Below, piece after piece: positions 32,588-46,958 of a DNA stretch of 46,958 bases. A program made the translations under genes and the position numbers. How positions within the stretch are numbered: the stretch's first letter is position 1; each line of letters begins with the position of its first letter. The notes beneath the pieces are model-generated. The model did no database searches and was not told the origin of the DNA. It was given only the letters and a program-made list of their open reading frames with translations. This DNA comes from Anaeromonas gelatinilytica (GTDB lineage: Bacteria > Bacillota > Clostridia > Tissierellales > SIT17): contig NZ_WSFU01000099.1 in NCBI RefSeq assembly GCF_016820635.1, positions 1 through 46,958 on the forward strand. The letters run 5' to 3'.

Positions 32588-34267
32588 TTATCCTACCTGT
32601 AAATGCGAGTTGACTTCGATATATTGGATAATGCGGCGTAGCTCGTTGGCAAACTTAAACCGTATGCTGATGTCGCCGCCCTCGTATACCTTGATATGGT
32701 CAACCAGCTCAATCAGGATTTCCCTTGTCAGCTTGTCGATGTTCTCGTATTTTCGGAAAGTTGCTAAAAAAGGATTTTCGGTATCAATGTCATTTTCCAG
32801 TTCGTCCCGCTCTTTTTTCAGATTGGCAATCACTGTGCCAATGGCTTCATTCTGCTGTTCGTAATCTTCGTTCATGTGGCGGTAATCATTATGTGTGATA
32901 TGACCGTCTTTCCAGTCCTGATAAAGTGCTTGCTTATATCGCATGATTTTGGCAAGCTCTTTTTCTTTTGCGGCAATCAGTTCATTCAGTCAAGCCGACT
33001 GACTTTTTTTGAGCGGAGCCAAGTTGATTTTTGATACAATAGCGGAATAGCTGACCGCAAGGTGTACCTGTTGCCTGATTGCATAAAGGACAGCCGCTTC
33101 AAGCCTTGTGCTTTTAATAGAGTGCATGGTACAGGCTTTTTTAGAAAGGCTCTTGTATGTTCCGCATTGGTAGTAAACATAAAATTCCTTGCTTGCTATC
33201 CGCGACATTGCCCTGCCACAATCTGCACAACGGAGAAAGCCGCTGAACAGATAAAGCTGTTTCTGTTTTGGAGAAGTGCGGGTATCACGCTTTAGCAGTT
33301 GCTTGACCTTTTCAAAGGCTTCTCGGTCAATAATCGGTTCATGGGTGTTCTGAACAACAATCCAGTCTTTTTCGGGTACGGCTTCGATTTTGTGTATCTT
33401 GTAGCTTTTCACACGATTTCGCCCCTGTGCCATATCCCCAACATAGACGGGGTTTTTCAGCATATTGCTGATAGTAATGGTACCCCACATAGGCTGTGTC
33501 TGTCCGTTGGGGCATTTGTACTTTAATCCCTGACTTTGCTTGTAAACAGAAGGACACATAACACCGTGGTTGTTTAGATGATTTACAATAGCCCTGACGG
33601 TCATACCGCTTAGACACATGGAAAAAATCTGCTTTACTACTTCTGCGGCTTCGTGGTCTACCAACAAAGCGTGTTTATCATTGGGGTCTTTGATGTAGCC
33701 ATAGGGGGCATAGGAGCCGATAAATTCCCCATTGCGTTTCTTGTAGTCAAATACCTGACGGATTTTCTTTGAGGTCTGGTAGCAATACTGGTCGTTCATT
33801 ACGTTGGTTATAGGAACAAGGATACTGGATACACTGTCAGGATTCAAATAACTGTCTACACCCTCTGCCAAGCTGATAAAGCGTACATTCATCTGAACAA
33901 ACAAATTTTCAATCAGACTTCCTGCGTCCGTATAGTTACGAGAAAGGCGGGAAAGGTCTTTGACAATCACGCAGTTTACCTTTTTCGCGTAAATGTCAGC
34001 CAGTAGTCTTTGAAAGTCAGCCCGGTTGGTGTCTGTACCTGTGCAACCGTCATCAACATAGGTTTCTGCGCTTTCAAATTCATCAAGATGCTGTCTGTAA
34101 TAATCATCAAGTAGTTTTTTTTGATTGGTAACACTGTTGCTGTCGTCCTTGCCACGGTTTAAGTCCTCTTTGGATAACCGGATATATTTTGCAAGATTCC
34201 AGCGTGTAGGATTATACGATAATTGAGAAACGGTCCTATTTGTTTCACTGTTTTTGGTTCGTGCCAT
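32588..34267 (-). pseudogene. Large serine recombinase (TndX/TnpX type) with an in-frame UGA
   Basis: A 560-codon frame. Resolvase domain at residues about 25-170 with catalytic Ser32 in KYIRLSKED and the DLSRLSRNY segment; recombinase domain about 190-310 with PYGYIKDP; zinc ribbon near 345-385 (CADCGRAM, YYQCGTY, KACTMH); Glu/Lys-rich coiled coil and C-terminal domain from about 430. A TGA at codon 426 (32992-32990) interrupts it, and the same frame continues on with recognisable coiled-coil sequence (LIAAKEKELAKI) to 32588. Only one nonsense change is needed, perhaps CGA or TGG to TGA. AAGGAGGAAGC precedes the ATG. The gene ends within ten bases of the element's left end, the usual place for such recombinases. 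Confidence 0.9.
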
Positions 34268-34293
34268 GCTTCCTCCTTCCTATCACATTACAC

Positions 34294-34337
34294 CTATATT
34301 ATACCATTTCAGCATAATGTGAACAATGTTGTCGAGG
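34294..34337 (-). promoter_or_regulatory. Recombinase promoter with a box shared with 42789-42804
   Basis: On the minus strand TTGTTC (34326-34321), 17 bases, TATAAT (34303-34298), about 30 bases before the recombinase start. The 16-bp box AACAATGTTGTCGAGG (34322-34337, plus strand) covers the -35 region and is repeated exactly, at the same offset, in the promoter of the CD1845-like gene. The -10 surroundings (CCTATATT-x-TACCATTT) are also alike. A common regulator is likely. Confidence 0.7.
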
Positions 34338-34372
34338 GCTTAAAAATGCCGTTAGATAGCGGATAGTACCGA

Positions 34373-34395
34373 TTTCGGGCCAACTTGACCCGAAG
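34373..34395. repeat. 23-bp palindrome, copy 1
   Basis: Member of the element's palindrome family with arms CTTCGGGCCAA/TTGGCCCGAAG around one base. This copy has T for C at the first position and A for G at position 16. It lies between the small hypothetical gene stop (34408) and the recombinase promoter. Confidence 0.9.
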
Positions 34396-34407
34396 TGGCA
34401 TGACCGA

Positions 34408-34671
34408 TTACAGGCCGCTTTTCTGCCGTATAAGAAAGTTTGTAATTACATCCTGCAAGGGTGGGCCGTCCTCCAGGAACTCTACCTTTACCGCAGTATC
34501 TCCATGACGGAAGCAGTAAGGGTTTTTTACCTGCTTCAAAATATGTGCCGCACGTTCCCTTTGAGGCAGGCTGTTATCAAAGTCGATTTCGCTAACATCT
34601 GTCAACTGTGATTTATCCACTGTGGCAATATCCACATCTTGCATTGTGTTGATCTGTTCCAGATTCACCAT
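34408..34671 (-). CDS. Small hypothetical mobile-element protein (DUF6870-like)
   Basis: An 87-residue protein without signal peptide or membrane segment. The pattern of an acidic N-terminal half (VDIATVDKSQLTDVSEIDF), then LPQRERAAHILKQVKNPYCFRHGD and a short VKVEF strand, resembles small proteins (DUF6870-like) from Firmicutes conjugative elements. ATG 34671 is preceded at nine bases by AAGGAGG; an upstream ATG at 34692 overlaps that site. It lies between two palindrome copies. Function unknown. Confidence 0.65.
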   Translation of the reverse strand: MVNLEQINTMQDVDIATVDKSQLTDVSEIDFDNSLPQRERAAHILKQVKNPYCFRHGDTAVKVEFLEDGPPLQDVITNFLIRQKSGL

Positions 34672-34692
34672 CACTTTGTACCTCCTTCTCAA

Positions 34693-35264
34693 ATGAAAAA
34701 TGTACTTTCAGTTTCCCGTTTGTCTTATGAGGAAACACAAACAGCCACCACTCTTGTCAGCAAAAGTGATGGCTGTTAATCTTTCCTCACACTTCGGGCC
34801 AACATGGCCCGAAGTTCAAATCTCCATTTATCATCACTAGGGAGGATACCGCGCCGTTATAGGTCGGCTTGTCATAAGACAGAAAGAAGCGACGCGGCAC
34901 TCCCTATATATAAAAGACGATAACCTGGACGGGCGGCGGCAACCGCCCTCATGGGAATTTCACCCCGCTCCATGCTGATGGCGCGACGGTCAATGCTGTG
35001 AAGCGTTCAAACCGTAAGTATCATTGTACCAATCAAAAGATTATCGCCGGGCAGATTGCCGAATCTATCTTGTCACAGTTGGTAGGAATCGCTCACGCTC
35101 CGTTTGGACTTTCCCCCTTTCAACGGGCGGTCTTGGCGTACCCTGCGGCTTGGCTCCCTTATGATTGAACGTATCCGGGTTATCGGTATTCAGTTGTCAA
35201 AGAACAGCAGACGGAGAAAAAAGCTCCTTCTAATAGCCATGTGATTTAAAAGGCAATTTCGGAA
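34693..35264. other. Structured non-coding region of the element
   Basis: No gene of normal size is supported over 570 bases. It contains palindrome copy 2, a GC hairpin GGGCGG-CGGCAA-CCGCCC (about 34934-34951) and, on the minus strand, a short frame of about 33 codons beginning MERGEIPMRAVAAARPGY that might be a leader peptide. GC-rich sequence with several potential stems suggests an RNA element or a recombination/transfer site. Its direction and role are unknown. Confidence 0.4.
34792..34814. repeat. 23-bp palindrome, copy 2
   Basis: Arms CTTCGGGCCA/TGGCCCGAAG are intact; the centre is ACA, so the inner pair differs from the other copies. It lies in the non-coding region between the sigma-like gene and the small hypothetical gene. 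Confidence 0.9.
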
Positions 35265-35690
35265 TCAAAAGTCAGATTTTTTTAAAATTTTTTCCATACT
35301 TTTTAGCGCCTTCTCAATAGCAACTCTGACCGCTTTTTCATTTACACCCTCTGCCCTTGCAATATCAGATTTGCTTATGCCGAGTATGTAATGGGCATAA
35401 ATCCGTTTCCCCTGCTTGTCCGGCATGGAAGCAATTGCGGAGTGCAGTTGTTCGGCAGTAATTTTGCGCTCGTAAATCTCACAAGGGGAAAGGGATACGA
35501 AAAGAATATCCTTTTCAATCCCGTCGTCAGCATCCAGCGAATAGTGGGCCTTGTTATAGAAGCGGCGGCGAATGTAGTTTTTCTCCAAACGTTCCGCTTC
35601 CAGCAAAGCGTCCTTGATTTCATCGGGTATCTCAACCAAAAAGTCTGAATTATAAAACGGGTAATAATCCCGCAGATTGATTTTAGCCAT
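35265..35690 (-). CDS. Sigma-70-like region 4 HTH protein of the element
   Basis: A 141-residue DNA-binding protein. The C-terminal half (residues about 80-138) is a sigma region 4-like helix-turn-helix: IYAHYILGISKSDIARAEGVNEKAVRVAIEKAL. The N-terminal half has the YYPFYNSDFLVEIPDEI segment common to mobile-element sigma-like proteins. ATG 35690 follows GGAGG at nine bases; ATG 35705 overlaps it. No sigma region 2 is present, so it is probably a regulator, not a full sigma factor. A terminator-palindrome leader lies upstream. Confidence 0.8.
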   Translation of the reverse strand: MAKINLRDYYPFYNSDFLVEIPDEIKDALLEAERLEKNYIRRRFYNKAHYSLDADDGIEKDILFVSLSPCEIYERKITAEQLHSAIASMPDKQGKRIYAHYILGISKSDIARAEGVNEKAVRVAIEKALKSMEKILKKSDF

Positions 35691-35767
35691 AGGGCGTTCC
35701 TCCATTTCGATTTTTTAGGGATTAGCGAATCAAAATGGAGAGGGCGGGGAACGACAGCAGAGCCGGA

Positions 35768-35790
35768 CTTCGGGCCAAGTTGGCCCGAAG
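35768..35790. repeat. 23-bp palindrome, copy 3
   Basis: Perfect arms CTTCGGGCCAA/TTGGCCCGAAG around G. It lies 77 bases upstream of the sigma-like gene and just downstream of a terminator hairpin in the direction of transcription. Confidence 0.95.
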
Positions 35791-35837
35791 TGACAGGACT
35801 TATCCCATGCGCTGTTAATGAAAAAATAGTACAAAAA

Positions 35838-35870
35838 AACACCTTTGCGCAAATTAGCACGAAAGGTGTC
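35838..35870 (-). terminator. Leader terminator upstream of the sigma-like gene
   Basis: On the minus strand ACACCTTT pairs with AAAGGTGT across a 15-base loop, followed by seven T residues. It stands about 150 bases upstream of the sigma-like gene and before palindrome copy 3. A very similar arrangement is at 46842-46873, upstream of the VLP gene, suggesting an attenuator. Confidence 0.7.
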
Positions 35871-35875
35871 GAATG

Positions 35876-35908
35876 AAAAATGGCCGCACTGATCGGCCAT
35901 CATTTTTA
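35876..35908 (+). terminator. Bidirectional hairpin TGGCCG/CGGCCA
   Basis: AAAAA-TGGCCG (35881-35886) pairs with CGGCCA (35894-35899), followed by TCATTTTT. It probably ends rightward transcripts. The rest of 35909-36204 has no gene; one further GC-rich stem with a single mismatch is at 36092-36125 (GCGGCGG/CCGCCGC). Confidence 0.6.
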
Positions 35909-36204
35909 TGCTTATTTTGAATTTATAAAGTATTGGAGCGTCAGCTAAGCCAAACCGTTACAGCAAGGCAACGGCTCCTCCCTAAAATGAAATAGCGACT
36001 TCGGATACATAAGAGTCTCCTATCCCAAAGCCGCCCAGCTAAAAAAGGGCGCAATTATCACGTCCCCCGCATTTCCCTTTTTTAAAGGAAAGCGGCGGCT
36101 TTGAATTTAATTTCAAAACCGCCGCCATGCAGGCAATTTATGCCCCAGCAAATATCTTTACTCTGCCGCTACAACAACGGTTTCACATCTAGCGAATATT
36201 TTGA

Positions 36205-36816
36205 TTAGGTTACTTGTGCAGCAACTATATTCATGATTGATTTTACTTCTCCAAATTTATTCCCGTTGACCATTGTTAAGTAACGATTACTCATTGCTTC
36301 AGAATCTACGCTTTCAATCACAGAATATCCAAAACTGTGCAAATAGTTATTGCACTCTTGAACATTTAGGCCAAACTTTATGTTTTCATCTTTTAAACCG
36401 ATATCTATTAGAGTATTCTCATTGTCTCTATGCTGATAATCAAAACTGAGAATACTTCCAGTTGAGGAATGCTGTCTTAATAAACTAAGCATGGAATCTA
36501 CCGATTTCGGTGATAAATAGAAGGTTACCCCTTCCCATATATATAAGGTTTGTAACGTACTTTGATATCCTGCATCGTAGAGCCTTTGGAACCAATCATC
36601 TTGCTCAAAATCTGCGGTTACATATAGGACATTTGAATGGATTTCCAATGCATTATCTTTAAGAATTTGGCATTTCAACTTCTGCGTAGCCGATGTGTCT
36701 ACTTCATAAATTTTAGAATTCTTAATCTGATTGGCATACCGGCAATGCATCAATTCAATACAAAAGCTTGTCCAAGGGGGGCGCGGTAAACTCGGAACAG
36801 GAGAATACTTATGCAA
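36205..36816 (-). pseudogene. Class I SAM-dependent methyltransferase (LCM/PPM family), 5'-truncated
   Basis: The 203-residue open frame matches the C-terminal two-thirds of leucine-carboxyl-methyltransferase-like enzymes: KIYEVDTSATQKLK, VTADFEQDDW, TLYIWEGVTFYLSPKSVD and GSILSFDYQHRD. The N-terminal part with the GAG(F/Y)D(S/T)RAYR SAM-binding loop is missing; sequence before KIYEVD is unrelated (Pro-rich, MHKYSPVPSLPRPPW). The usual insertion after FDY also seems shortened. It is probably an inactive cargo remnant. Its lower GC sets it apart from the backbone. Confidence 0.7.
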
Positions 36817-36854
36817 AAAGCAGAGGTTATGCTTTTTAAGCTCATAGCCTCTGC
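36815..36854 (-). terminator. Terminator of the ABC exporter-tetR operon
   Basis: A 12-bp stem with one G-T pair (36820-36831 with 36843-36854) and, on the minus strand, a CTTTTT tail (36819-36815). It lies about 130 bases after the tetR stop codon. Confidence 0.7.
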
Positions 36855-36983
36855 TGGAAGGATTGCGCTTTCTAGAAAACTTATCACTGCATTAGACTAT
36901 TTAGGCTTTTACGTCAGTTTCTAACAAATCAGAAAAAACGGGACTGGGTATCCGCTTTTTCACTACCGTTTTGCGGATATCAC

Positions 36984-37616
36984 TTACTTTACCGCCGTTC
37001 CATTACGCAATACCGTTATCAGTTCGTCTATCTTGCCCAAAACTTCATAGTCCTGCATATCGGGCATAATGACTCTATCAATCCGTTCAAGTAAGATTGC
37101 AAAGACCTCAGCCATCATCTGCACAGAAATATCACTTCGGATTTGTCCTTTTAGCTGTGCATTCTCGACCATGCGGAGCAAAACATTTTCGGTGACACCG
37201 CCAAAAACGCCAACTACGGTTTCCCGAAAGCTCAATTCCTCAGTCAGAAATCGACGAGAGAGAGCGTTGTATCTTGGCTCTTTCCGCGCAAAGCGGATTC
37301 CCAACATAGCTTTCTTCCTTATGGACGCAAAAAAATCATCTTCTGTATTCGTGTCGTCGTATTGCGCAAACAGCTCCAGTTTTTCCACACTAAGCCGTTG
37401 GAGCAAAGACAGATATAAATCCAGTTTGTCATAAAAGCGGTAGTAAAAGCTTCCCTTGTTCATTCCCGCCGCCTTAATAATATCATTTAGAGAAGCTTCC
37501 CCAAAGGAGTGTGTGGAAAAAACGTCCAACGCAGCTTCGCAAAGTGCCGTATTGCCGTTAAGAGGATTTTCAACGCCCTCATGCTGCCATTTCATTTTTC
37601 CGTTCGTGTCTGACAT
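36984..37616 (-). CDS. TetR/AcrR-family regulator of the ABC exporter
   Basis: A 210-residue repressor. The helix-turn-helix is ASLNDIIKAAGMNKGSFYYRF (residues about 41-61), followed by a helical ligand domain. GGAGG precedes the ATG at ten bases, inside the upstream microprotein gene, whose stop overlaps this start by one base. The paired GACCGACTGGTC sites at 40585-40636 in the exporter promoter are its likely operators. The ligand is presumably the exported compound. Confidence 0.88.
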   Translation of the reverse strand: MSDTNGKMKWQHEGVENPLNGNTALCEAALDVFSTHSFGEASLNDIIKAAGMNKGSFYYRFYDKLDLYLSLLQRLSVEKLELFAQYDDTNTEDDFFASIRKKAMLGIRFARKEPRYNALSRRFLTEELSFRETVVGVFGGVTENVLLRMVENAQLKGQIRSDISVQMMAEVFAILLERIDRVIMPDMQDYEVLGKIDELITVLRNGTAVK

Positions 37617-37756
37617 TAGTCTTCATCCTCCATAATTTTTTCGCGCCTTTCTTTTTTCTCCTTTTGCTTTTTCATCCATGCGCCGCCAACTTTAACCTTT
37701 AAAAAGATAAAACCTGCAAGAGCAACAATAATTAGAACCCACCAATACCATGCCAT
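37616..37756 (-). CDS. 46-residue single-helix membrane microprotein
   Basis: A short frame starting MAWYWWVLIIVALAGFIFL, one transmembrane helix (residues about 4-20), then a strongly charged Lys/Glu/Arg tail ending MEDED. The ribosome site GGAGGTGATTTT before the ATG is excellent. It starts four bases after the upstream permease gene and its stop overlaps the tetR start (TAATG), so it is translated as part of the operon. It could be an accessory subunit or regulator of the ABC exporter, like other small membrane partners of transporters; this is inference. Confidence 0.75.
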   Translation of the reverse strand: MAWYWWVLIIVALAGFIFLKVKVGGAWMKKQKEKKERREKIMEDED

Positions 37757-37760
37757 AAAA

Positions 37761-38750
37761 TCACCTCCAAGTTTTCATTTTTATTTTTTTCGTAAATATA
37801 ATCATTACAGGGATGAACCATACAAATCCTGTCGCAAGAATCATAAGGAGCTGGAATGTTGGTTCTCTGTTAGAAATCACCATGTCAATTGCGGCATATT
37901 GCCAGTACATGGGCAATGCGTAGTATAGAAAAAGCCACTTTTCCGGGATAAAAACAGCGGATATCCCGACAGCCAGAAACAGAGGCATAACAATTTTCAG
38001 GACGCCAACCGCGGCAATTTGATTACTCGCGAAAGCAATAATCAGAAAGATGATCATACTGCTGACAAAAACGCTGCACAGAGCCAGCAGAAGGAATTGC
38101 AGCAGTGCGTCCACTCGACCCATAATCAATGCGCAGGCAGACACCCCAATCATACCAAACAGCAGTGAGGGGATTATTTTTGAGACAACATAACTGCCAA
38201 GCGTCATAGGGCTGACCGAAACCGCGCGGATAACACCGCTTTCCCGTTCATTTACGCCGCTTAGGCCCAATGAGGAGCCACCGATAAACAGGGCAAGCAG
38301 AAAGATGCAGGCCATTGAAATAGTATAAGCCAAAGAATTTTGACCTTCAACCGTTTCAGTCGTATATTGGATAGGCTCGGTATCAAGAGCGGCGTTCACA
38401 AGCTTTTGCCTCAATTCGGCAAACCCTTGCGCTTCATTTCCTTCGACTATCAGCCTGATATTGCCGCCTTCCAGAGTAACACCGGCAATGCTGTCCGCTC
38501 CGCTTACTCTTTCTTTCAGACTTTCAAGATTATCGACATATTCAATATCAGCTACAGCTTCCAGTTTAGTAACCAAATCCCGGGGCAGACTTTTTTCTAC
38601 TGTCAGGGAGATATTCGAATCCTGAACACTGCCAAATACAAACATAAAGATCAGAGCAAGTACCGCCGGGGAAATCGTTAAATAGATTGTAATTCCGTCC
38701 CGAAAAATCAGTTTAAATTCTCGCGTAATCGTCATGATAATACTTTTCAT
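37761..38750 (-). CDS. ABC-2 type exporter permease (second subunit)
   Basis: A 329-residue permease: one N-terminal helix (residues about 17-40), a large extracytoplasmic domain (about 45-130), then five C-terminal helices starting at about 145. The RDGITIYLTISPAVLALIF start and the GVNERESGVIRAVSVSPMTLGSYVVSKI coupling segment are ABC-2/YhgE-type features. Paired with the upstream permease (three-base gap), it should form a heterodimer with the ATPase at 39722. Confidence 0.88.
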   Translation of the reverse strand: MKSIIMTITREFKLIFRDGITIYLTISPAVLALIFMFVFGSVQDSNISLTVEKSLPRDLVTKLEAVADIEYVDNLESLKERVSGADSIAGVTLEGGNIRLIVEGNEAQGFAELRQKLVNAALDTEPIQYTTETVEGQNSLAYTISMACIFLLALFIGGSSLGLSGVNERESGVIRAVSVSPMTLGSYVVSKIIPSLLFGMIGVSACALIMGRVDALLQFLLLALCSVFVSSMIIFLIIAFASNQIAAVGVLKIVMPLFLAVGISAVFIPEKWLFLYYALPMYWQYAAIDMVISNREPTFQLLMILATGFVWFIPVMIIFTKKIKMKTWR

Positions 38751-38753
38751 TCG

Positions 38754-39725
38754 TTATCGCCTCCCTTTTGACAAAAGATATCTTCCGACCACAAATCGGC
38801 TGATTAGATATGCGCCAATGGACCAACCGATCACAGTGAACACTGTGGGAAGCAAACTTCGTCCCATTCCAAATAGAATGTTTTCATAAGCAAATATCAG
38901 GGAATAGGAGGGTATCATTCTGAGCCATAACGGTGAAAAAGACGGCTCCGAATAAGCCACAACTGGAAGCATGTTGACAGATAGCAGGAGGGCCATAGAA
39001 AAGAACCAACTGCTCATATCCCTGAAAAAGGTTGTAAATGCAAGTCCAATCAGGGAGAATATCGAAGCACCAAAAAAACTGAGTAAAACAAAATGAAAGA
39101 TGGAAAAATCAAAACCGATGCAAAAGAATGCCATCAGTAAGGCATATAGTACTGCGATGATTGAAAAAAGCACCGTCTTTGAAATGAGATACTTGTCAGC
39201 CCCCATCGGCGCTATCCGCATTGCCCGAATCGTTCCTTCTTCCTTTTCCGACAGCATCAAGGCCCCGCCCAGAATAAACCCGATAATGAGCGCCTCAAAG
39301 CAAATAAAGACTGGCGTCATGCGCTTGTTAAAAGGGATTGCTGTGTTGTTTTCGTTTATGCTTTCTACTTCTACATAAGTATCGGAAGGATCATGAAGCA
39401 CGGTCATCATTGCACGAACAGTCTTTTCGGATAGGCCTGGATTCAAAACCGTAATACTACCGTCATCGTTTCCGAGCAGGCCGATTGTTCCGTTCTCTTT
39501 GACTGCCTGCCGTAATTCCTCTTCACTGCTTACAGCAGTGGTCTGATCGGCGTAATAGTCTGTATAATACGAAAAGATGTGGTAGCCTTCTTCTGAAATA
39601 TTTTCAGGAAGTGCAAAATTAATGAGTACGATAATGAGTACCAGGGTTGCGGTAATCACCCAAAAAAGGGCGTTTGTTAAAAGGCGCTTGAAATCCTGAA
39701 TGCCCAGTGCGAGAATGCCGCTCAT
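38754..39725 (-). CDS. ABC-2 type exporter permease (first subunit)
   Basis: A 323-residue permease with the same layout: N-terminal helix, external domain (about residues 45-140), then C-terminal helices with the coupling stretch LSEKEEGTIRAMRIAPMGADKYLISKT. It overlaps the ATPase gene by four bases (ATGA), so expression is coupled. Substrate is unknown; an antimicrobial or toxic peptide is typical for TetR-governed systems of this form. Confidence 0.88.
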   Translation of the reverse strand: MSGILALGIQDFKRLLTNALFWVITATLVLIIVLINFALPENISEEGYHIFSYYTDYYADQTTAVSSEEELRQAVKENGTIGLLGNDDGSITVLNPGLSEKTVRAMMTVLHDPSDTYVEVESINENNTAIPFNKRMTPVFICFEALIIGFILGGALMLSEKEEGTIRAMRIAPMGADKYLISKTVLFSIIAVLYALLMAFFCIGFDFSIFHFVLLSFFGASIFSLIGLAFTTFFRDMSSWFFSMALLLSVNMLPVVAYSEPSFSPLWLRMIPSYSLIFAYENILFGMGRSLLPTVFTVIGWSIGAYLISRFVVGRYLLSKGRR

Positions 39726-40570
39726 GACTTTAGCTCCTTCCCGGTAACACGCAGAAATATTTCCTCAAGCGTGGCCTCCTGAGAATGGATTTTGACAGGA
39801 TTTACGCTCAGTAGAAATTCGGCAAGGGCTTTGCGGTCATCCATGTCAAAAGACTTGGAGCGTTCGTTTCCGACCTCGTCATATACGACGGTTACAAGTC
39901 GTTTTCCATATTGGCGTTTCAGCACCTCGGGCGAATCCATTGCCGCAACCTTACCGTTATACAAAAAGGCCACAGTATCACAGAGCGAATCGGCAAGCTC
40001 CATATTATGCGTTGTCAAAAATACCGCCGCCCCGCTGTCCCGTTGTTCCCTGATCAGTTCCCGGACATTTGCCGCCGTGGATGGGTCAAGCCCGCTTGTG
40101 GGTTCGTCAAGGAACAAATATTTTGGCTTGTTAATCAGCGCTCTTGCAAGTGTGAGCCGTTGCCGCATCCCCTTGGAATACTCCGAAGCTTTTTTATGCG
40201 CCGATTCTCTCAGGCCTACTCTGTCCAGCAGTTTCATTGGGTCGTGTGTGGGAACGGAAAAAAGCGCCGCAAAATATTTAAGGTTTTCATATCCCGTCAG
40301 TTTTGCGTAAACGTTAGGTTGTTCAAACGACACACCAATTTGATTAAAAAACTTAGTGTTTAAAGCTTTAACAGATTTACCATCATAGAGAACTTCGCCT
40401 CGCTGTAATGGAATAAGCCCTGTCATAATGTTCTGCACTGTGGATTTTCCTGCACCAGAAGGTCCCAGAAATCCAAAGATTTTTCCACTTTCAACGGAAA
40501 AGGAAATGTCAGTCACAGCATAATGTCCTTTTCCTCCATAGTCGTGGTATACGCTATTAATAGTAATCAT
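39722..40570 (-). CDS. ABC transporter ATP-binding protein
   Basis: A 282-residue ATPase. Walker A is GPSGAGKST (residues about 39-47), Q-loop in GVSFEQPNVY, signature YSKGMRQRLTLARAL, Walker B YLFLDEPTSGLD and the switch His in TTHNMEL. The C-terminal tail (about 220-282) resembles the DrrA/CcmA-type extension. I chose ATG 40570, after AAGGAGG; a longer frame to 40618 runs into the operator. It powers the two permeases encoded downstream. Confidence 0.92.
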   Translation of the reverse strand: MITINSVYHDYGGKGHYAVTDISFSVESGKIFGFLGPSGAGKSTVQNIMTGLIPLQRGEVLYDGKSVKALNTKFFNQIGVSFEQPNVYAKLTGYENLKYFAALFSVPTHDPMKLLDRVGLRESAHKKASEYSKGMRQRLTLARALINKPKYLFLDEPTSGLDPSTAANVRELIREQRDSGAAVFLTTHNMELADSLCDTVAFLYNGKVAAMDSPEVLKRQYGKRLVTVVYDEVGNERSKSFDMDDRKALAEFLLSVNPVKIHSQEATLEEIFLRVTGKELKS

Positions 40571-40584
40571 TATAAAACCTCCTT

Positions 40585-40636
40585 CTTGACCGACTGGTCT
40601 AATGATAGCATAGCACAATTAGACCGACTGGTCAAG
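40585..40636 (-). promoter_or_regulatory. Exporter promoter with two TetR operator sites
   Basis: GACCGACTGGTC occurs twice, as TTGACCGACTGGTCTAAT-type (40585-40603) and its outward-inverted copy (40618-40636), 14 bases apart. On the minus strand TTGACC (40635-40630) and TATGCT (40613-40608) form a promoter with 17-base spacing inside the pair, so bound TetR dimers would cover both boxes. Confidence 0.75.
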
Positions 40637-40934
40637 AGAAAGTTAGAATCTTTGATATTCGTGCTATAAGGGACTTTTATTCGGATTTTCACACTTATGT
40701 ATCACTTCTTACTGTGCCTAAAAAGTATGCACACACCCATGTGAATGCCACAGTAATACGGCAAAAGCAAAACGGCAAGCAGGGCAAGTGTATTGACACT
40801 TGCACATTATTGAGATTTTCTCTTGCGGGAAAACTCAAAAATTGCTTGTTGGGGAGTGCCTTCCCCAAACCCTGCGACTTCGGGCCAAGTTGGCCCGAAG
40901 TCGGTGCGTTGCACCTCATGTTGCGTCATGTTCG
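40637..40934. other. Non-coding junction with hairpins between cargo and relaxase genes
   Basis: No gene is supported. It holds a perfect stem GCAAGTGT/ACACTTGC with loop ATTG (40784-40803), a second stem TTGGGGA/TCCCCAA (about 40852-40871) followed on the minus strand by CAATTTTTG that may end the relaxase transcript, and palindrome copy 4. One of these stems could belong to an origin of transfer, but no nick site can be named. Confidence 0.45.
40878..40900. repeat. 23-bp palindrome, copy 4
   Basis: Perfect arms CTTCGGGCCAA/TTGGCCCGAAG around G, 35 bases after the relaxase stop codon. Confidence 0.95.
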
Positions 40935-42337
40935 CTATCGCTCCATTTCCTTATTTTTCTGCGCTTCCGTCAGGCCGAGCAGATGGTCAATATTGCTTTT
41001 CACTGTAACAATTTCATGCATGGCCTTTTTGGTTTCCCGATACTCCCGATAAGCCTTTTTCTTGTCTGCCGACAACCGCTGAAACTCTGCTTTCAGCGTA
41101 TCCATTTTAGGGAGCTTTGCCGCGGACAGCAAACGTCGGAAAGTATCCTGCGCCGCCCGGTAGGCGGCAATATCCGCTTCATGCACCGCAAGATATTTTT
41201 TGCTGTACTTCGCCGCCTTGTATCCCTCAAACACAGGCCGGGCTTTCGCATAATCTACCACAGCCGCCTTTAGCTCTGCGTTGATGCGCATAGCGGATTC
41301 GGCGGCTTTTATGCTGTCTGAAAGCGTATGGAAACGGTTGGTAAGCTCTGCGGTCTTTTGCTCCAAATCTGCATATTCCAGCAAACCATTTTCCTGCAAA
41401 TACTGTAAAGCTGCCGCCATCTGCTTGAGGTTGAATACCTTTGCCCAGCGTTCATAAGCCGGGCCTTTTCCGGCTTTCATACGGGCTTGAATATCCACAA
41501 TCAGATTGACCTTGCGCCGTTCCTGCGGAGCGGCTTTTCCCTCAATCGCCGCTTGTATATCCTCCTGCCCGTAGCCCCCTTGCCAAGCGTAGAAGCACGG
41601 AGCCGGGTAAAGCGTTCCTGGCCCTCTACCCGAAAGCTGATCGTGCCGCCGCGCCCCTGCTTGATTTCATAACCAGCCGCCGTCATTGCCTGTAAAAAAG
41701 TGTCCATATCCGGCGGCTTCATTGCAAGGCAAATATCAATCTGCGCCTTTAATTTCTCTTGAAAGGTGGGCGTCTTGTGACCGCCGAGCCATTCCCCGTA
41801 ATGCTTGAATTTTCCCTTGCTGTGGCGTTTCGGATTGGTGATGACAGACAGTCCGTTTTCAAGGCATATCCGGTCGGAGAGCCGCCGCACCGCACGGGCC
41901 GAACCGATAAAATCCCGGAATTTCCGGGCGCAGTCCAACGAGGTTGAATTGTAGTAAATATGGCAATGAGGGTGGGGACGGTCAGCATGGGAAACCACGA
42001 AAAAGGCATATCGCCCTTTCGTCCAGCGCAGGGCAAGGTCATAGCTGATTTTAAGGGCGGTTTCCGGGTCTGTTTCACCAGGCAGGAACGCCTGTCGGAT
42101 TTGATAATACAGCACATCATTCTCCCGTTTTTGCTCCCGCCCGGTAATAGCCTTATATTTTGCTTTAGAGAGTAAAAATTCTGCGTCAGCCGTGGCAGGG
42201 TCACATTCATAGGCAAGAATTAAATTGCCGCCCCGGGTCTTATCTGGATTTTTCCCGTAGTCAAAACCGTCCTTTAAAGTTTCCATAATGGTCATGCCAC
42301 TTCCTGTATGACGAGTCATAAGGCGGGTGGTTGCCAT
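40935..42337 (-). pseudogene. MobP/VirD2-like relaxase, frameshifted
   Basis: The N-terminal part (ATG 42337 after AAAGGAGGAA) has the HUH nickase motif HADRPHPHCHIYYN (His122, 124, 126) and an upstream Tyr-rich region. At a run of five C on the plus strand (41575-41579) the frame shifts: the first frame goes on as RRIYKRRLREK to a stop at 41501, while the true continuation (YGQEDIQAAIEGK, then VDIQARMKAGKGPAYERW) is in another frame to 40935. The span of 1403 bases is one short of a whole frame, fitting a one-base loss. Restored length would be about 467 residues. The relaxase would nick oriT with MobC; as read it yields two fragments. Confidence 0.85.
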
Positions 42338-42367
42338 GTGCGTTTCCTCCTTTCCTCGAAAAAACAA

Positions 42368-42390
42368 CTTCGGGCCAAGTTGACCCGAAG
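42368..42390. repeat. 23-bp palindrome, copy 5
   Basis: Arms as in the other copies with A for G at position 16 (TTGACCCGAAG). It lies between the CD1845-like gene stop (42418) and the relaxase ribosome site. Confidence 0.92.
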
Positions 42391-42417
42391 TTGCTCGGCA
42401 GTTCTGTTATGCTGCTG

Positions 42418-42717
42418 TTAGCTTACAATGAAAAAGCGAAGTGAACTATTCAGGCTGTGCAGTCCGTCAATCAGGTATTCCGCAATGGCGGGAATCCCAA
42501 GGGGAGAAATTAAAAATGACAGAAACAGGAACACGCCGAAGCCCAGCTTTTCACCGCTTATCAGCAGGGCAATACTGATAAGAACGCCTATCCCGGAAAC
42601 CACCTGTAAAAGAGCGGCGGCATAGCAGAATACAAATTCAATCATGGGTGTTACTATCGTCAGCAGAACCACAAACGGTGCGGCGATAATCTTAAATATT
42701 AGCTTGATAAACTTCAT
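42418..42717 (-). CDS. Small membrane protein, CD1845-like family
   Basis: A 99-residue protein with two long hydrophobic stretches (residues about 10-65) and a short C-terminal amphipathic tail. The FKIIAAPFVVLLTIVTPMIEF start and the PLGIPAIAEYLIDGLHSLN ending match the CD1845 family of Tn1549-like elements. AAGGAGAA precedes the ATG. It is the first gene of the minus-strand relaxase operon and is driven from 42760-42805. Role unknown. Confidence 0.75.
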   Translation of the reverse strand: MKFIKLIFKIIAAPFVVLLTIVTPMIEFVFCYAAALLQVVSGIGVLISIALLISGEKLGFGVFLFLSFLISPLGIPAIAEYLIDGLHSLNSSLRFFIVS

Positions 42718-42759
42718 AAAAATTCTCCTTTTATTGAGTGGCTTTCTTGTTGTATCCTA

Positions 42760-42804
42760 CCTATATTTTACCATTTGAGGCAGGGTGCAACAATGTTGTC
42801 GAGG
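42760..42804 (-). promoter_or_regulatory. Promoter of the CD1845-relaxase operon, with the shared 16-bp box
   Basis: On the minus strand TTGTTG (42793-42788), 17 bases, TAAAAT (42770-42765). The box AACAATGTTGTCGAGG (42789-42804, plus strand) matches 34322-34337 exactly and at the same offset to the -35. The AAA ATPase cargo begins just beyond it. Confidence 0.7.
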
Positions 42805-42836
42805 CCGCACCGATATAGTTTTATACTCATCTTATA

Positions 42837-42865
42837 TTGTATTATTTTGGTACATGTTGTATATT
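42837..42865 (+). promoter_or_regulatory. Probable promoter of the AAA ATPase gene
   Basis: TTGTAT (42837-42842), 17 bases, TATATT (42860-42865), 27 bases before the start codon. It diverges from the relaxase operon promoter. Confidence 0.55.
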
Positions 42866-42892
42866 ATTATTAAAGAATTGGAGGTGTACAGC

Positions 42893-45010
42893 ATGCATAA
42901 TGTCGAAATTAAGAATTGTAATAATATTACTATGGGACATTTTAAAATATGTCCAGAGAAGCTAAATATCAAATATGGAATTAACGGAACTGGAAAAACA
43001 ACAATTTCAAAAGCAATTGATTATTTTAGTGACAATGATAAACTGCAAACGCTAAAATCCTTTTATAGTGAAGATTCAGCCTCTATTACAATAGCCCCAG
43101 CTTTCAATAACGTCTTGATTTTTGATGAAACTTTTGTAAATCAAGTGGTTTTTAAAGAAAGTGAAGTTATAGGAAAACCCTTTGAAGTGTTCATTAAAAC
43201 ACCAACCTATGATTTGAGAAAAGCAAAATTAGATGAACATCTAGCAACGTTGAGAAAACTAATGGAAGAAGATAACGAAGTTGTCGAACTAAGGGACAAG
43301 TTATCAAAGTTACTCGGAAAGTTTACCACAACTGCCAGCGGAAAACTTAGCAAAAAAGGTGCATTAGGTAGTCTTTTATCTAAAAACAATCTTTATAATA
43401 TACCAACTCAATTAGAAAGTTATCGACCATTTATTTCGGATTCAGATAACAACATAAATTGGATTGCATGGAAAACGCAAGGTGACAAATTTGATACTAT
43501 TGATAAGTGTCCCTTTTGTGCAGAATCATTACCTCAAACTCACGAGGAACAGAAAAAGGTCTTTTCTCAAACATTCAAAAAAAGCGATAGCCAAAATTTG
43601 AAAGAAGTTATGGATTTATTGGAAAGTTTAGAGGTTTATCTTGACCCTATTCAGTTTAGTACGCTTATTTCCTACATAAAACAAGATACTCCAGAAGATA
43701 CAATACAACTGGTTATTAACAAGTTATACACTGAATTTGATCTTCTTTTAAAAAAGTTCGATGCAATGATTAATTTCGGTAAAAAACAAATCGCAATTGC
43801 TGATATATCTACTCTTGATGCCCAAATAAATAATATGGAGATACCCGCTGAACTTTTAGTGTATTTTGGTGGGGACTTAATTACTGGCATAGTTGGTCGA
43901 ATAAATGCAAATGTCGAAAGCCTAAAGGCAGAAGTCGGAAAAATCAAAGAAGAAATGGGTTCTTTAAAGGGTGTTATGCAGGCCACAATAAAGGAGTCTC
44001 AAGATGATATTAATAGGTTTTTGAAAACAGCAGGTATTAACTATGAGCTTGAAATACAAGCAGAGGACGAATCCAACAGTAAAACAATATTAAAACAGTG
44101 CTTTAGCAACGAAAAAACAGATGTTTCAAATATCAGAAACCATTTAAGCTGGGGAGAAAAAAATGCATTCTCGTTAATATTGTTTATGTACTATGCAAAA
44201 TCGCAAAATCCAGATCTAATAATTTTAGATGACCCTATCTCGTCATTTGATAGCAATAAAAAATTTGCAATATTGCATAGATTGTTTAAAAAAGATATAG
44301 GTAAAAAGGATGTTTCTTTTGCTGGTAAGACAGTTCTATTGTTAACCCATGATTTTGAACCAATTATTGACTTTGTGATTATAGGGAAACTATCGGGTGA
44401 TTCTGTTACATCTTCTTTTATTTGGAATGATGGCGGAACAGTTGAAGAGGAAGAAATTGACCCTGCTTCTGACGTAAAGCTAGTTCTTACAGAGAATAAA
44501 GAGATTGCTTCAAACCCGGATATTAATATTATAAGCCGAATTGCCGCTCTTAGAAAATGCTGTGAACTAAATGGCTGTGTTGGGGCGTGGGGGTATGCTT
44601 ATGAAATATTGTCATGCCTAATTCATGGTAATGAAATAAAAAGAAAAATTGCAAATGAACAGTTTGAGGATATGCCACACCAGGAAATTGAATCAGGAAT
44701 CCAGTTAATAAAAGAATACATTTCTGATTTTGTTTACGAAACATTGAAAGAGCATACATATACCCAACAAGGTATTAAGGAACTTTATCAGCAAGAGCAC
44801 AATTCCTATTTTAAACTTCAATTGTTTCGAGCCATGTGTGAAATTTGCAATAAGATTAGAATGTGTCCGCAAGACAATGCATGGTACAAATTTATTGATG
44901 AAACCTACCATATTGAAAATGATTACTTGCATTACCTAGATGTTCGGAAATTTAATATTGTGCCAACATATATAGCAAGTAAAGTTGACGAAATGATGGC
45001 TCCACTATAA
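42893..45010 (+). CDS. AAA_13-family ATPase, PrrC/RloC-like; candidate defence protein
   Basis: A 705-residue protein. Walker A is GINGTGKTT (residues 29-37). A long helical region (about 100-390) contains a Rad50/RloC-style CPFC zinc-hook pair (Cys206, Cys209). The ABC-type signature LSWGEKNAFSL (418-428) and Walker B LIILDDPISSFDS (442-454) complete the ATPase head, with LLLTHD as switch. A C-terminal domain (about 540-705) follows; R554-x3-E558 with His578 recalls the Arg-Glu-His set of PrrC/RloC anticodon nucleases, though the His spacing differs. ATG 42893 follows GGAGGTG. It is the only plus-strand gene of the element, is far more A/T-rich than the backbone, and has no restriction-modification partner nearby. 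tRNA cleavage is a hypothesis. Confidence 0.75.
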   Translation: MHNVEIKNCNNITMGHFKICPEKLNIKYGINGTGKTTISKAIDYFSDNDKLQTLKSFYSEDSASITIAPAFNNVLIFDETFVNQVVFKESEVIGKPFEVFIKTPTYDLRKAKLDEHLATLRKLMEEDNEVVELRDKLSKLLGKFTTTASGKLSKKGALGSLLSKNNLYNIPTQLESYRPFISDSDNNINWIAWKTQGDKFDTIDKCPFCAESLPQTHEEQKKVFSQTFKKSDSQNLKEVMDLLESLEVYLDPIQFSTLISYIKQDTPEDTIQLVINKLYTEFDLLLKKFDAMINFGKKQIAIADISTLDAQINNMEIPAELLVYFGGDLITGIVGRINANVESLKAEVGKIKEEMGSLKGVMQATIKESQDDINRFLKTAGINYELEIQAEDESNSKTILKQCFSNEKTDVSNIRNHLSWGEKNAFSLILFMYYAKSQNPDLIILDDPISSFDSNKKFAILHRLFKKDIGKKDVSFAGKTVLLLTHDFEPIIDFVIIGKLSGDSVTSSFIWNDGGTVEEEEIDPASDVKLVLTENKEIASNPDINIISRIAALRKCCELNGCVGAWGYAYEILSCLIHGNEIKRKIANEQFEDMPHQEIESGIQLIKEYISDFVYETLKEHTYTQQGIKELYQQEHNSYFKLQLFRAMCEICNKIRMCPQDNAWYKFIDETYHIENDYLHYLDVRKFNIVPTYIASKVDEMMAPL

Positions 45011-45045
45011 TCATAATTTTCTTTAATAAAAAGTTTTCTTGTCAA

Positions 45046-45086
45046 AAAGCGGGGAGCGGCGGCATTGTGCCAACGCTCCCCGCTTT
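45046..45086. terminator. Bidirectional terminator between the AAA gene and mobC
   Basis: A 13-bp GC-rich stem (45046-45058 with 45074-45086). On the minus strand a CTTTTTG tail follows, on the plus strand CTTTCCTT. It separates the converging AAA and mobC transcripts. Confidence 0.85.
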
Positions 45087-45088
45087 CC

Positions 45089-45436
45089 TTATAGCTGCAC
45101 TACCGCCATAAGCTGTTTAAGTACCTCTGAAACCCGGTTCCATAACTCGGTATAATCTTTTTGCAGGGCAGCAATTTCGGACGGATAAACGCCGTAGGTA
45201 TTGGCGTGAATCGCAACCTGATTCAGATTGTTGGCACATCTGCGTTGCAGGGAAACCAACTCCCGAACAGGAGCAAGGTCAACATTCAACACATAACCAT
45301 TGAGTGCCATTTTGCGAATATACGCACTTAAATTCTGCGTTCCAGCCTGTGCCATACGTTCCCCAATGGCGGCGTATTCTTCATCACTCACCCAAACATA
45401 AAGAGGAACGCCCCGCCTGCGTTTGGAGCGGCTCAC
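45089..45436 (-). CDS. mobC: MobC-like relaxosome accessory protein
   Basis: A 115-residue DNA-binding protein. It starts with a basic SRSKRRRG stretch and a ribbon-helix-helix-like region (VPLYVWVSDEEYAAIGERM, then GTQNLSAYIRKMAL), followed by the MobC helix segment RRCANNLNQVAIHANTYG (residues about 66-83). MobC proteins bind oriT and help the relaxase. Its start overlaps the upstream gene by four bases. The relaxase gene is separated from it by the AAA cargo, which seems to have split an ancestral mob operon. Confidence 0.88.
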   Translation of the reverse strand: MSRSKRRRGVPLYVWVSDEEYAAIGERMAQAGTQNLSAYIRKMALNGYVLNVDLAPVRELVSLQRRCANNLNQVAIHANTYGVYPSEIAALQKDYTELWNRVSEVLKQLMAVVQL

Positions 45437-45615
45437 CGTTCCTCCCGTTCCCGGCTCCTGCGCTTTGCCGGCGGCTCCTTTACCCGGTCTTTCGGCCTTT
45501 CCTCCGGCATAGCCTGCGGAACAGGCAGAGGCGTGTTATTCGGAATCCCATCAATCATGTTGTAATTCTGCTCGGTCGAAAGCTCTGCATTTTTCAAATA
45601 GTTATCCTTTTCCAT
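45433..45615 (-). CDS. Small mobile-element protein (DUF4316-like N-terminus)
   Basis: A 60-residue hydrophilic protein. MEKDNYLKNAELSTEQNYNM resembles the start of DUF4316-type proteins of Tn1549-like elements, but the rest is a short Pro/Arg/Glu-rich tail (RVKEPPAKRRSREREER). It may be a reduced member of that family. AAAGGAGG precedes the ATG. Overlap with mobC (ATGA) shows translational coupling. Confidence 0.6.
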   Translation of the reverse strand: MEKDNYLKNAELSTEQNYNMIDGIPNNTPLPVPQAMPEERPKDRVKEPPAKRRSREREER

Positions 45616-45639
45616 TCTAAAAAACCTCCTTTTTTATGA

Positions 45640-45662
45640 CTTCGGGCCAAGTTGGCCCGAAG
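45640..45662. repeat. 23-bp palindrome, copy 6
   Basis: Perfect arms CTTCGGGCCAA/TTGGCCCGAAG around G. It lies three bases after the stop of the gene at 45666 and just before the ribosome site of the 60-residue gene. Confidence 0.95.
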
Positions 45663-45665
45663 TGA

Positions 45666-46271
45666 TTATCGGTCTTTTTCTGTGCCTTTTTCGGGAGCAG
45701 GACGGGTGACGTTGTCTTGTGCCGCCTGTTTTGCTCCCTCTACCAGCCGGGCGGCAATGGATTTACTTTCTCCCGGTTCCCACATGGGGGCTTTTCTGTC
45801 GGGATTGCCGGGAGTCGCCCGAAGCTCATAGTCGGTCATCTGCTTTTCTGTCAGAGGTGCGTCATATACAAGATAGCCCCATGCCAGAAAACGGCCCTGT
45901 TCCACACTTTCCCGCTTATCAAAGTTCACAAGATACAGTGGGCCGTTCTCCGTTTTGGGGAACGTACCAATGTCCACCGGCCTTTGTGTGGAATAATACT
46001 TGTAAGCTGTTTTTTCGGATACGCCGTAGTCATACTGATATTCGGAAACACGATTCTCATAATCCCTTGTGGCGGCGGCTTTATCGGTGGTATAGTATCC
46101 CCAATAATAATCGCGCCTGCCGCTTGCGTCCTCGGTAAACTGCCATGTGGCAAAGTGCTGTACCGCCTGCGGATTTTCCCCAAGAGCAAAACCCCGGTCA
46201 TTCTCAAAGGCAATGGCCCGTTTGATTTCATGTCCTTTTACGTTATCGCTTATTTTTTCCTCCGTTTTCAT
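45666..46271 (-). CDS. Hypothetical mobile-element protein, uncertain start
   Basis: A 201-residue soluble, Tyr/Arg/Glu-rich protein with no motif I can name; segments such as WGYYTTDKAAATRDYENRVSEY and PLYLVNFDKRESVEQGRFLAWGYL suggest a mixed alpha/beta fold. It probably belongs to the element backbone. The start is a problem: ATG 46271 has no ribosome site, whereas GGAGG lies just downstream, five bases before an ATA codon at 46253 (IleSerAspAsn). The original start may have been ATG at that place, now mutated to ATA. ATG 46313 is a second upstream option. Confidence 0.55.
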   Translation of the reverse strand: MKTEEKISDNVKGHEIKRAIAFENDRGFALGENPQAVQHFATWQFTEDASGRRDYYWGYYTTDKAAATRDYENRVSEYQYDYGVSEKTAYKYYSTQRPVDIGTFPKTENGPLYLVNFDKRESVEQGRFLAWGYLVYDAPLTEKQMTDYELRATPGNPDRKAPMWEPGESKSIAARLVEGAKQAAQDNVTRPAPEKGTEKDR

Positions 46272-46394
46272 ACATGAAAATGTCACGCTGTTACACCCAA
46301 AAAGCGGGGACATGAAGCATAGATACCTTTTCCTTGAAACCGGGGCCGGAAAACCCCGGAAATCAAGGCTTTTTCAAGCAAACTTCGTGACACC

Positions 46395-46771
46395 TTACCC
46401 CTTGTTTTTGCGCCTGTGCCGCTGTTGGCGGCGGCGGTCTGCTTCGCGTTTTCCTTTCCGGCGGCAGGCTTCGGAGCAATAGGTCTGACTGGTGACAGGA
46501 AGATAGGCCGCACCACAGACCGGACAGGTCTTACGGGAAAGCACCGCAGGGTTTCCGGCTAAATCAGCTTCCAGCACTGGGTCAAGCGTAAGCACGCCTT
46601 TTTAAAATACTTGCAGTATGCGCCCGTCCAGTATTTATCCAGCATATAACAGCCGCCGTAATCAAGGGGCAGACAGCCATATTCCGGGTCATAGTTGGCG
46701 CACATACCTGTTACCAGCCTGCGGATTGCGGTGCGTTCCCGGCGGGTCAGTTCCCGGGGTTCGGCACTCAT
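46395..46771 (-). pseudogene. Cysteine-rich VLP-domain protein, frameshifted
   Basis: The N-terminal part (MSAEPRELTRRERTAIRRLV, then GMCANYDPEYGCLPLDYGGC and YCKYFKKA) and the C-terminal part (LDPVLEADLAGNPAVL, CPVCGAAYLPVTSQTYCSEACRRKG) are joined by a one-base loss near 46594-46597, where GCG-GTG is expected but GCGTG is read. The span of 377 bases fits a lost base. As read the first frame ends at 46559 with QCWKLI. The Cys pairs suggest two small metal-binding sites, one a C-terminal zinc ribbon. The start at 46771 lacks a clear ribosome site and lies just after palindrome copy 7; the frame is open further upstream. Confidence 0.8.
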
Positions 46772-46779
46772 AGGTCTGA

Positions 46780-46802
46780 CTTCGGGCCAAGTTGGCCCGA
46801 AG
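46780..46802. repeat. 23-bp palindrome, copy 7
   Basis: Perfect arms CTTCGGGCCAA/TTGGCCCGAAG around G, eight bases upstream of the VLP start codon. It follows a terminator-like leader hairpin in the direction of transcription, exactly as copy 3 does. Confidence 0.95.
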
Positions 46803-46841
46803 TTGCGCAAAGGCTTGTCCCAAAGACCAGCAAATAAAAAG

Positions 46842-46873
46842 ACACCTATCCGAGAAAAGACTCGAACGGTGTC
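46842..46873 (-). terminator. Leader terminator upstream of the VLP gene
   Basis: On the minus strand GACACC pairs with GGTGTC (outer stem) and CGAG with CTCG (inner stem), followed by TTTTTATTTG. Its surroundings match the hairpin at 35838-35870. From about 46895 to the window end the sequence is A/T-rich with no gene, probably flanking chromosome. Confidence 0.65.
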
Positions 46874-46958
46874 GCATGAAAAATGGGCGCAGTAGCCTTC
46901 TAGTGTTGCATTAAAGAAATAATTACAGTTTGACATGGAAAAAATTATATAATGAAAA

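Follow-up and report, generated by a model that had tools for sequence, protein, structure and literature searches.

The gene at 42893-45010 of the window (the whole 46,958-nucleotide stretch of Anaeromonas gelatinilytica DNA that was analysed) encodes a 705-residue protein and, on balance, appears to be a stand-alone defence gene that travels in a mobilisable element as exchangeable cargo and joins an ATPase to a C-terminal effector which the ATPase would gate. Its probable role is phage defence, within a broad class that is already known, although its killing part is unexplored; we read it best as a toxic effector gated by a RloC-like ATPase and equipped with an effector domain of its own kind. 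The observations behind this reading are the homology of the head and hook, strict conservation, purifying selection, exchange of modules in one slot and the restriction-modification neighbours of some relatives. The gene and its surroundings are arranged as follows:

32990-34264, minus strand: serine recombinase of the element (profile scan)
41501-42334, minus strand: relaxase gene, PF03432 (profile scan)
42418-42717, minus strand: DUF5699 gene, left neighbour of the slot (profile scan)
42815-45044, plus strand: content of the cargo slot, an insert relative to sister elements (breaks of flank identity, aligned junctions)
42880-42884, plus strand: GGAGG, probable ribosome-binding site, 8 bases before the ATG (read from the letters)
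42893-45010, plus strand: gene of the 705-residue AAA_13 / PDC-S06 protein (ORF list, Pfam, PADLOC)
45044-45088, minus strand: hairpin behind mobC, probably the mobC terminator and part of the backbone (folding, sister alignment)
45089-45436, minus strand: mobC/NikA-like gene, right neighbour of the slot (profile scan)

The element begins near 32.6 kb and extends to the end of the window. Window positions 40767-42814 and 45045-46804 align with the sister element L085 (genome G238) at 93% and 91% DNA identity. The left-flank identity ends at a single base, 42814, for both L085 and a second sister, L014, and the right-flank identity restarts at 45045 (L085) or 45089 (L014). Between these junctions L085 carries 3.5 kb of unrelated DNA coding for a 446-residue SIR2 protein and a 679-residue HerA ATPase (PADLOC SIR2, E 9e-168, and HerA, E 2e-248; Pfam SIR2_2 and HerA), a pair listed as the defence system GAO_19 in the accessible text of PMC11514479. 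The same element was found in L014 (Sporomusa ovata), L015 (Clostridium tetanomorphum), L013 (Caproicibacter fermentans) and L025 (C. thailandense), with amino acid identities to the window of 94% for the relaxase, 97% for DUF5699 and 93-94% for MobC; here the slot holds another member of the ATPase family, 33% identical to the window protein and in L025 broken into two frames. Since L013, L014 and L015 show 99.9% identity across most of the length they share, they were counted as one event, and such identity among these three hosts indicates very recent transfer between distant genera. The window and L014 proteins are widely separated in a quick tree of 34 proteins, and a topology that groups them was rejected (p-AU 0.0002), suggesting that the site acquired such a gene twice.

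The more distant L121 (genome G318; relaxase 70%, MobC 71%) has a 481-residue TIR/SEFIR protein encoded in its slot, which here is bounded by relaxase and mobC; the gene again runs opposite to the backbone, and DUF5699 gave no match in this locus. Two distant sisters, L242 and L125 (MobC 45% and 38%, DUF5699 27% and 33%), have no cargo, the distance between their DUF5699 and mobC genes being at most some 250 bases; the slot can thus be empty, a point that we count against the defence reading. No MobC was seen in the relaxase-matching loci L120, L122, L123, L124, L126, L127 and L243, some of which lie at contig ends, and these loci carry no weight for the slot. The sister elements thus confirm the view, put forward in a preliminary description made from the sequence, that the gene is cargo in a likely defence slot between mobC and the relaxase genes: the ATPase gene is not constant there, and SIR2-HerA, TIR/SEFIR or the 33% relative is found in its place. 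The A/T-richness noted at the same time was also borne out: the slot has a G+C content of 0.322, whereas the element has 0.448 over 32601-42814 and 0.508 over 45045-46958. The cargoes of L085 and L121 have values of 0.350 and 0.342, and their flanks 0.50-0.54; the slot value is near that of window positions 1-32000 (0.311).

The gene lies on the strand opposite to the relaxase, DUF5699 and mobC genes, in agreement with the orientation first described. The Pfam family AAA_13 matches the protein with 87 bits (cut-off 36). A longer open reading frame with a GTG start at 42785 was disregarded because it begins to the left of the cargo boundary and homologues begin at the ATG. The promoter and the terminator at first ascribed to the gene were not supported. 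Promoter-like sites numbered 10 in the region compared to 10.4 +/- 3.2 in shuffled sequences, and a consensus scan revealed none on the plus strand between 42650 and the start codon, and no terminator-like site. The hairpin at 45044-45088, the candidate for such a terminator, is directly 3' of mobC on the minus strand, where there is a T tract, and was assigned to the backbone on the strength of an identical copy in L085, which carries other cargo; L014 and L121 have a different sequence at this place. The viral contigs scanned with the hairpin gave no match.

Other parts of the element were also inspected. Positions 36984-40618 code for a TetR regulator, two membrane-like proteins (by eye) and an ABC ATPase, probably an efflux module that forms a second cargo; L085 contains nothing that matches 35889-40766. 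A palindromic repeat roughly 27 bases long, with the core ACTTCGGGCCAAGTTGGCCCGAAGT, is present in seven window copies with up to 5 mismatches (34370, 34789, 35765, 40875, 42365, 45637 and 46777), all within the element, with 9 copies in L085 and 7 in L014. One copy folds strongly, and short matches to one copy were found in several other genomes of the class. A copy begins about 10 bases inside the left slot edge in L085 and L014, and the window has no copy there.

The motifs of the protein, all on the plus strand, are:

42977-43003, plus strand: Walker A, GINGTGKTT (residues 29-37), conserved in homologues
43508-43519, plus strand: CPFC hook (residues 206-209), both Cys in 33/33 homologues and aligned by hhalign with the RloC-type CxxC
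44144-44164, plus strand: ABC signature LSWGEKN (residues 418-424), conserved in homologues
44216-44251, plus strand: Walker B / D-loop LIILDDPISSFD (residues 442-453), conserved in homologues
44348-44350, plus strand: H-loop His486, invariant in homologues
44459-45007, plus strand: C-terminal domain, putative effector (residues 523-705; separate model)
44552-44566, plus strand: R554-x3-E558, 33/33 homologues
44624-44626, plus strand: H578, 30/33 homologues, Lys in L019, L044 and L046
44888-44920, plus strand: motif K666 ... H673-I-E-N676, with K666, H673 and N676 each in 33/33 homologues

The open reading frame, the AAA_13 match and the motif positions all agree with the PrrC/RloC-like plan originally proposed, an ABC-type ATPase head with a CPFC pair and a distinct C-terminal domain. 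Conservation was read from a 33-row alignment that used 19 of the 27 genome loci (the eight dropped being the duplicates L013 and L015, the contig-end copies L011 and L029 and the interrupted copies L024, L025, L028 and L030) and 12 of the 28 viral loci, the rest being near-duplicate, incomplete, interrupted or ABC-only. For comparison, 14 copies were chosen by the pattern R-x3-E...SH and 13 of them aligned, L177 being excluded; "RloC-type" is here a label based on the hook, the R-x3-E...SH triad and the PADLOC model, and the set holds no annotated RloC. The head and hook matched the profile of these 13 proteins over residues 22-489 (hhalign 99.8%, E 2.1e-27), and the CxxC of the 33-member family profile aligned with theirs. 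The family therefore has the CxxC pair characteristic of RloC, a putative zinc hook. The whole-protein model (pLDDT 85.8) had Rad50 as its closest fold (3qku_A, Z 17.3, rmsd 5.5, 289 aligned), and the matches shown were to SMC, Rad50, RecN/RecF, Lamassu and other ABC-type heads.

The C-terminal domain behaved differently. Modelled alone it gave a pLDDT of 90.6 and a pTM of 0.88, and the model matched nothing in PDB or BFVD at E <= 0.001 and nothing in the VIA comparison at Z >= 5, where the best row had Z 3.0. Amid unrelated rows there was a single weak match to a HEPN protein (4nqf_A, Z 2.1, rmsd 6.6, 92 aligned), and the fold could not be linked to nucleases. Assignment to HEPN by fold found no support, the whole-model rows being ABC-type heads and the C-terminal model having no PDB or BFVD match, though a missing match does not speak against such a fold. 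Against the 13 RloC-type C-termini the hhalign probability was 0.2% (E 0.32); a forced alignment superposed both R-x3-E motifs, not significantly. No Pfam family was found in more than one of 32 C-terminal sequences and none matched HEPN; the single-member matches, AIPR_N (0.0015) and Cas_Csm6_6H (0.078) among them, were taken as chance. The match in PHROGs was to one family, phrog_2801 (E 1e-40), which has no known function and aligned best in the ABC part, and a PDB sequence search with the RloC-type profile returned ABC and PARIS AriA chains and no RloC. The domain's lack of a RloC-type, Pfam, solved or viral fold match is counted against the defence reading. Stand-alone C-terminal domains were not seen among 388 genomes of the phylum and the viral contigs: in the genomes there were four matches in frames of 707-743 residues and two weak ones in short stop-containing frames, and nine of the ten viral matches lay on contigs already in the full-protein viral set, the tenth being L252.

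Eight residues are invariant in all 33 homologues (C206, C209, R554, E558, R646, K666, H673 and N676), and S574 is conserved in 31. The set R554/E558/H578, earlier likened to the nuclease triad, stood in its first two members; H578 as third catalytic residue was weakened, Lys replacing it in three homologues while H673 is invariant. The H673 region reads KFIDETYH or KFINESYH in the family and resembles the triad-His strings (R/K)FINxYSH of the RloC-type L165, L166, L168 and L169, such as KFINEYSH in L165, a by-eye lead without profile support. This likeness together with the conservation makes H673 a better active-site candidate than H578. The HEPN motif R-x4-6-H is absent among the conserved columns of the 33 homologues, the nearest being K666-x6-H673. 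The end (NEFNHFEMDM) of a 717-residue ABC protein on a viral-collection contig (L054:4870-7023) also resembles the H673 region by eye, and this protein may be a bridge between the family and further PADLOC candidates, PDC-S46 for example.

The protein resembles RloC in its ABC head, CxxC hook, stand-alone gene and separate C-terminal domain with an R-x3-E helix, and differs in that this domain has no detectable homology to RloC-type C-termini. The accessible text of PMC2610378 gives the RloC triad as Arg-X3-Glu-X36-52-His; the Glu-His spacing was 28-50 in the 14 RloC-type copies, which were selected by that motif. In the family E558 and the non-invariant H578 are 16-21 residues apart, and E558 and H673 are separated by 114 in the window protein. 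One could suppose that the protein is a genuine anticodon nuclease of RloC type, with an insert in a HEPN domain too diverged to be recognised and with a triad of R554-x3-E558 and H673. The invariance of R-x3-E, the KFIDETYH likeness as a lead, the RloC-like head and hook and the placing of both groups under PDC-S06 by PADLOC would fit this supposition; we nevertheless consider it rather unlikely, given that hhalign finds no C-terminal homology even when forced, that the spacing is far beyond the published x36-52 and that no HEPN family of Pfam matches. By the C-terminal comparison and the triad spacing the protein is not a member of RloC, although it may work like RloC.

Other known systems share less with the protein. 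PrrC also joins an ABC ATPase to a C-terminal domain, and the relatives L004 and L010 lie, like PrrC, inside type I gene sets, with L026 beside HsdS giving a partial linkage; on the other hand, the window copy has no restriction genes among the window proteins scanned, and the CxxC hook insert of the 705-residue protein is, in the accessible part of PMC2610378, a feature of RloC and not of PrrC. The ABC-HEPN families APECO1_4465 and ERFG_01251, as described in the available text of PMC3710099, combine an ABC ATPase with a C-terminal effector and occur in prophages and islands; they were compared by description only, and a HEPN assignment is unsupported for the 705-residue family. The SIR2-HerA and TIR/SEFIR genes occupy the same slot and are unrelated proteins. 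ColIb IbfA, considered as a tested relative, was set aside, R64-type IbfA being an ATPase-TOPRIM protein. IbfA / HEC-04 is likewise a plasmid-borne single ATPase-effector defence gene, differing in its 518 residues, TOPRIM domain and OLD-like ATPase (PMC12111858, in the text available).

Relatives were found at 27 loci in genome contigs, 19 with an intact frame of at least 691 residues, three at contig ends, one without the first in-frame codons and four interrupted, and at 28 loci in viral contigs, six of them weak and ABC-only. Their hosts range from archaea to Pseudomonadota. A search of 50,697 phage records (E 1e-5) returned no relative, which we count against the defence reading. Interrupted copies also occur in G018 and G158; the copies of L025, G018 and G158 are split or contain stop codons, and near-identical sisters of L025 are intact. 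Such copies are frequent for costly genes. In five gene pairs of relatives dN/dS was 0.08-0.23 across the full gene and 0.09-0.22 within the end domain, indicating that the head part and the end domain are both maintained by selection. This purifying selection and the Rad50/SMC-like head would also suit a DNA-repair or housekeeping ATPase without immune role. We consider such a role very improbable, as the gene is scattered in its occurrence (within the host's order, 9 of 249 genomes have it at E <= 1e-40), other modules occupy its site in sister elements and interrupted copies exist in several hosts.

The neighbourhoods of 18 relatives were listed as open reading frames, and 20 neighbours from eight of them, chosen by eye, were scanned. 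Restriction-modification genes were present at 7 of the 18 loci, a lower bound and not a rate, because the neighbours were picked by eye and no background rate stands alongside. L004 and L010 have type I restriction gene sets around the ATPase and L026 an adjoining HsdS gene; L005 has a C5 methylase and a MvaI/BcnI nuclease upstream, L006 two methylases nearby, L016 two D12 methylases and an AlwI nuclease downstream, and L018 a type III res subunit nearby. The window proteins scanned (9 including the ATPase in one set, 10 in another) included no restriction-modification genes, so that their reported absence from the vicinity holds for these proteins and fails for the family; an anti-restriction protein, DarA_C, is encoded at 45666-46313. 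An Arcobacter plasmid (L235:2897-15375) has a row of SbcCD-like genes, the ATPase relative, a DUF2779 protein and a dGTPase that looks like a composite defence operon. Given the exchange in the slot and the restriction-modification neighbours, the gene keeps the genomic company of defence genes. Two pairs of loci, L014 with L022 (88% DNA identity) and L005 with L009 (85%), have the ATPase gene and a little flank in common and nothing found beyond, so the gene also seems mobile by itself.

Plasmids are a frequent location. Relatives were found on 888 plasmids, 774 of them with at least 80% query coverage and all below 60% identity; 615 of the carriers are conjugative and 150 mobilisable. When the DNA of an E. 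coli homologue was used to search 5,426 E. coli genomes, 802 gave any match and 544 a match with at least 80% coverage, and 756 of 852 places of any size were on plasmids. The E. coli relative is about 32% identical to the window protein, and most of the E. coli relatives listed are annotated as AAA family ATPase. On two IncF plasmids, L060 and L234, VapC(B) and CcdAB genes lie near the copies, one of which is near a SIR2 gene and the other near a type I restriction gene; a chromosomal copy, L233, is near an integrase. In the manner of SMC-type systems, which act on incoming DNA, the gene might guard its element against competing plasmids or integrative elements, or stabilise it, rather than act against phages, as could be argued from the many transmissible carriers, the toxin-antitoxin genes near the two IncF copies examined and a weaker match to LmuB (E 1.4e-12). 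This seems to us unlikely, with copies also on chromosomes and prophage-type contigs, and with anti-phage or restriction types among the slot partners (SIR2-HerA, TIR) and many of the neighbours.

The gene had been proposed as a new single-gene system, and in this respect the proposal has to be revised, since PADLOC already lists it as PDC-S06. Its model PDLC04889 matched residues 3-703 of 705 (E 7.8e-208, 690 bits, model positions 2-688 of 693), and the E. coli plasmid homologue matched PDC-S06 with 948 bits. PDC-S06 belongs to a list of candidates and is not a tested system, the PDC label itself being a prediction. It mixes different C-terminal domains, as other PDC-S06 models, such as PDLC04894, match RloC-type proteins (517 bits for L057). 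The accessible text of PMC11811056 describes PDC-x systems as unpublished candidates of Payne et al.; the term PDC was not found in the PADLOC papers searched. PDC-S06 is merely listed or counted in the available portions of PMC11514479, PMC11811056 and PMC11878078, and the available text of PMC10855318 reports it as predicted in 38 P. aeruginosa strains, 74.4% of which were phage-resistant. No experimental or phage test of the family was found in the literature searched, which is also counted against the defence reading.

For RloC, the text available from PMC2610378 reports tRNA cleavage by the end domain, inactive triad mutants and a hook mutant with gained activity, and that from PMC3874168 reports activation by an inducer of DNA breaks. 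By analogy, the Rad50-like ABC head and the hook of the 705-residue protein probably hold the C-terminal domain inactive, a RloC-like gating that we infer from the homology of head and hook. On binding invader or damaged DNA the head would cycle ATP and release the C-terminal domain, which would then probably cut nucleic acid, most likely RNA and perhaps tRNA, using a putative active-site set of R554, E558 and H673 with K666, R646 and N676. Growth of the infected cell would thereby be stopped, as in abortive infection.

A wider reading, offered tentatively, is that the RloC plan is modular, the same head and zinc hook being joined to an effector of new fold, with an active site of R554, E558, R646, K666, H673 and N676, in a broad defence family. 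This family would be found in Bacillota, Pseudomonadota and archaea as well as on several hundred plasmids of enterobacteria, and SIR2-HerA and TIR modules would be its competitors for one slot in a lineage of mobilisable Bacillota elements. The combination of relaxase, DUF5699 and mobC genes provides a simple marker for finding more defence genes. The family represents a probable immune gene that is widespread in E. coli and for which no test was found in the literature searched; with a relative in 544 of 5,426 genomes of this species, it is open to immediate testing in laboratory strains. Should the end domain prove to have a new effector fold, the head of RloC would be a general sensor module that takes different killing domains.
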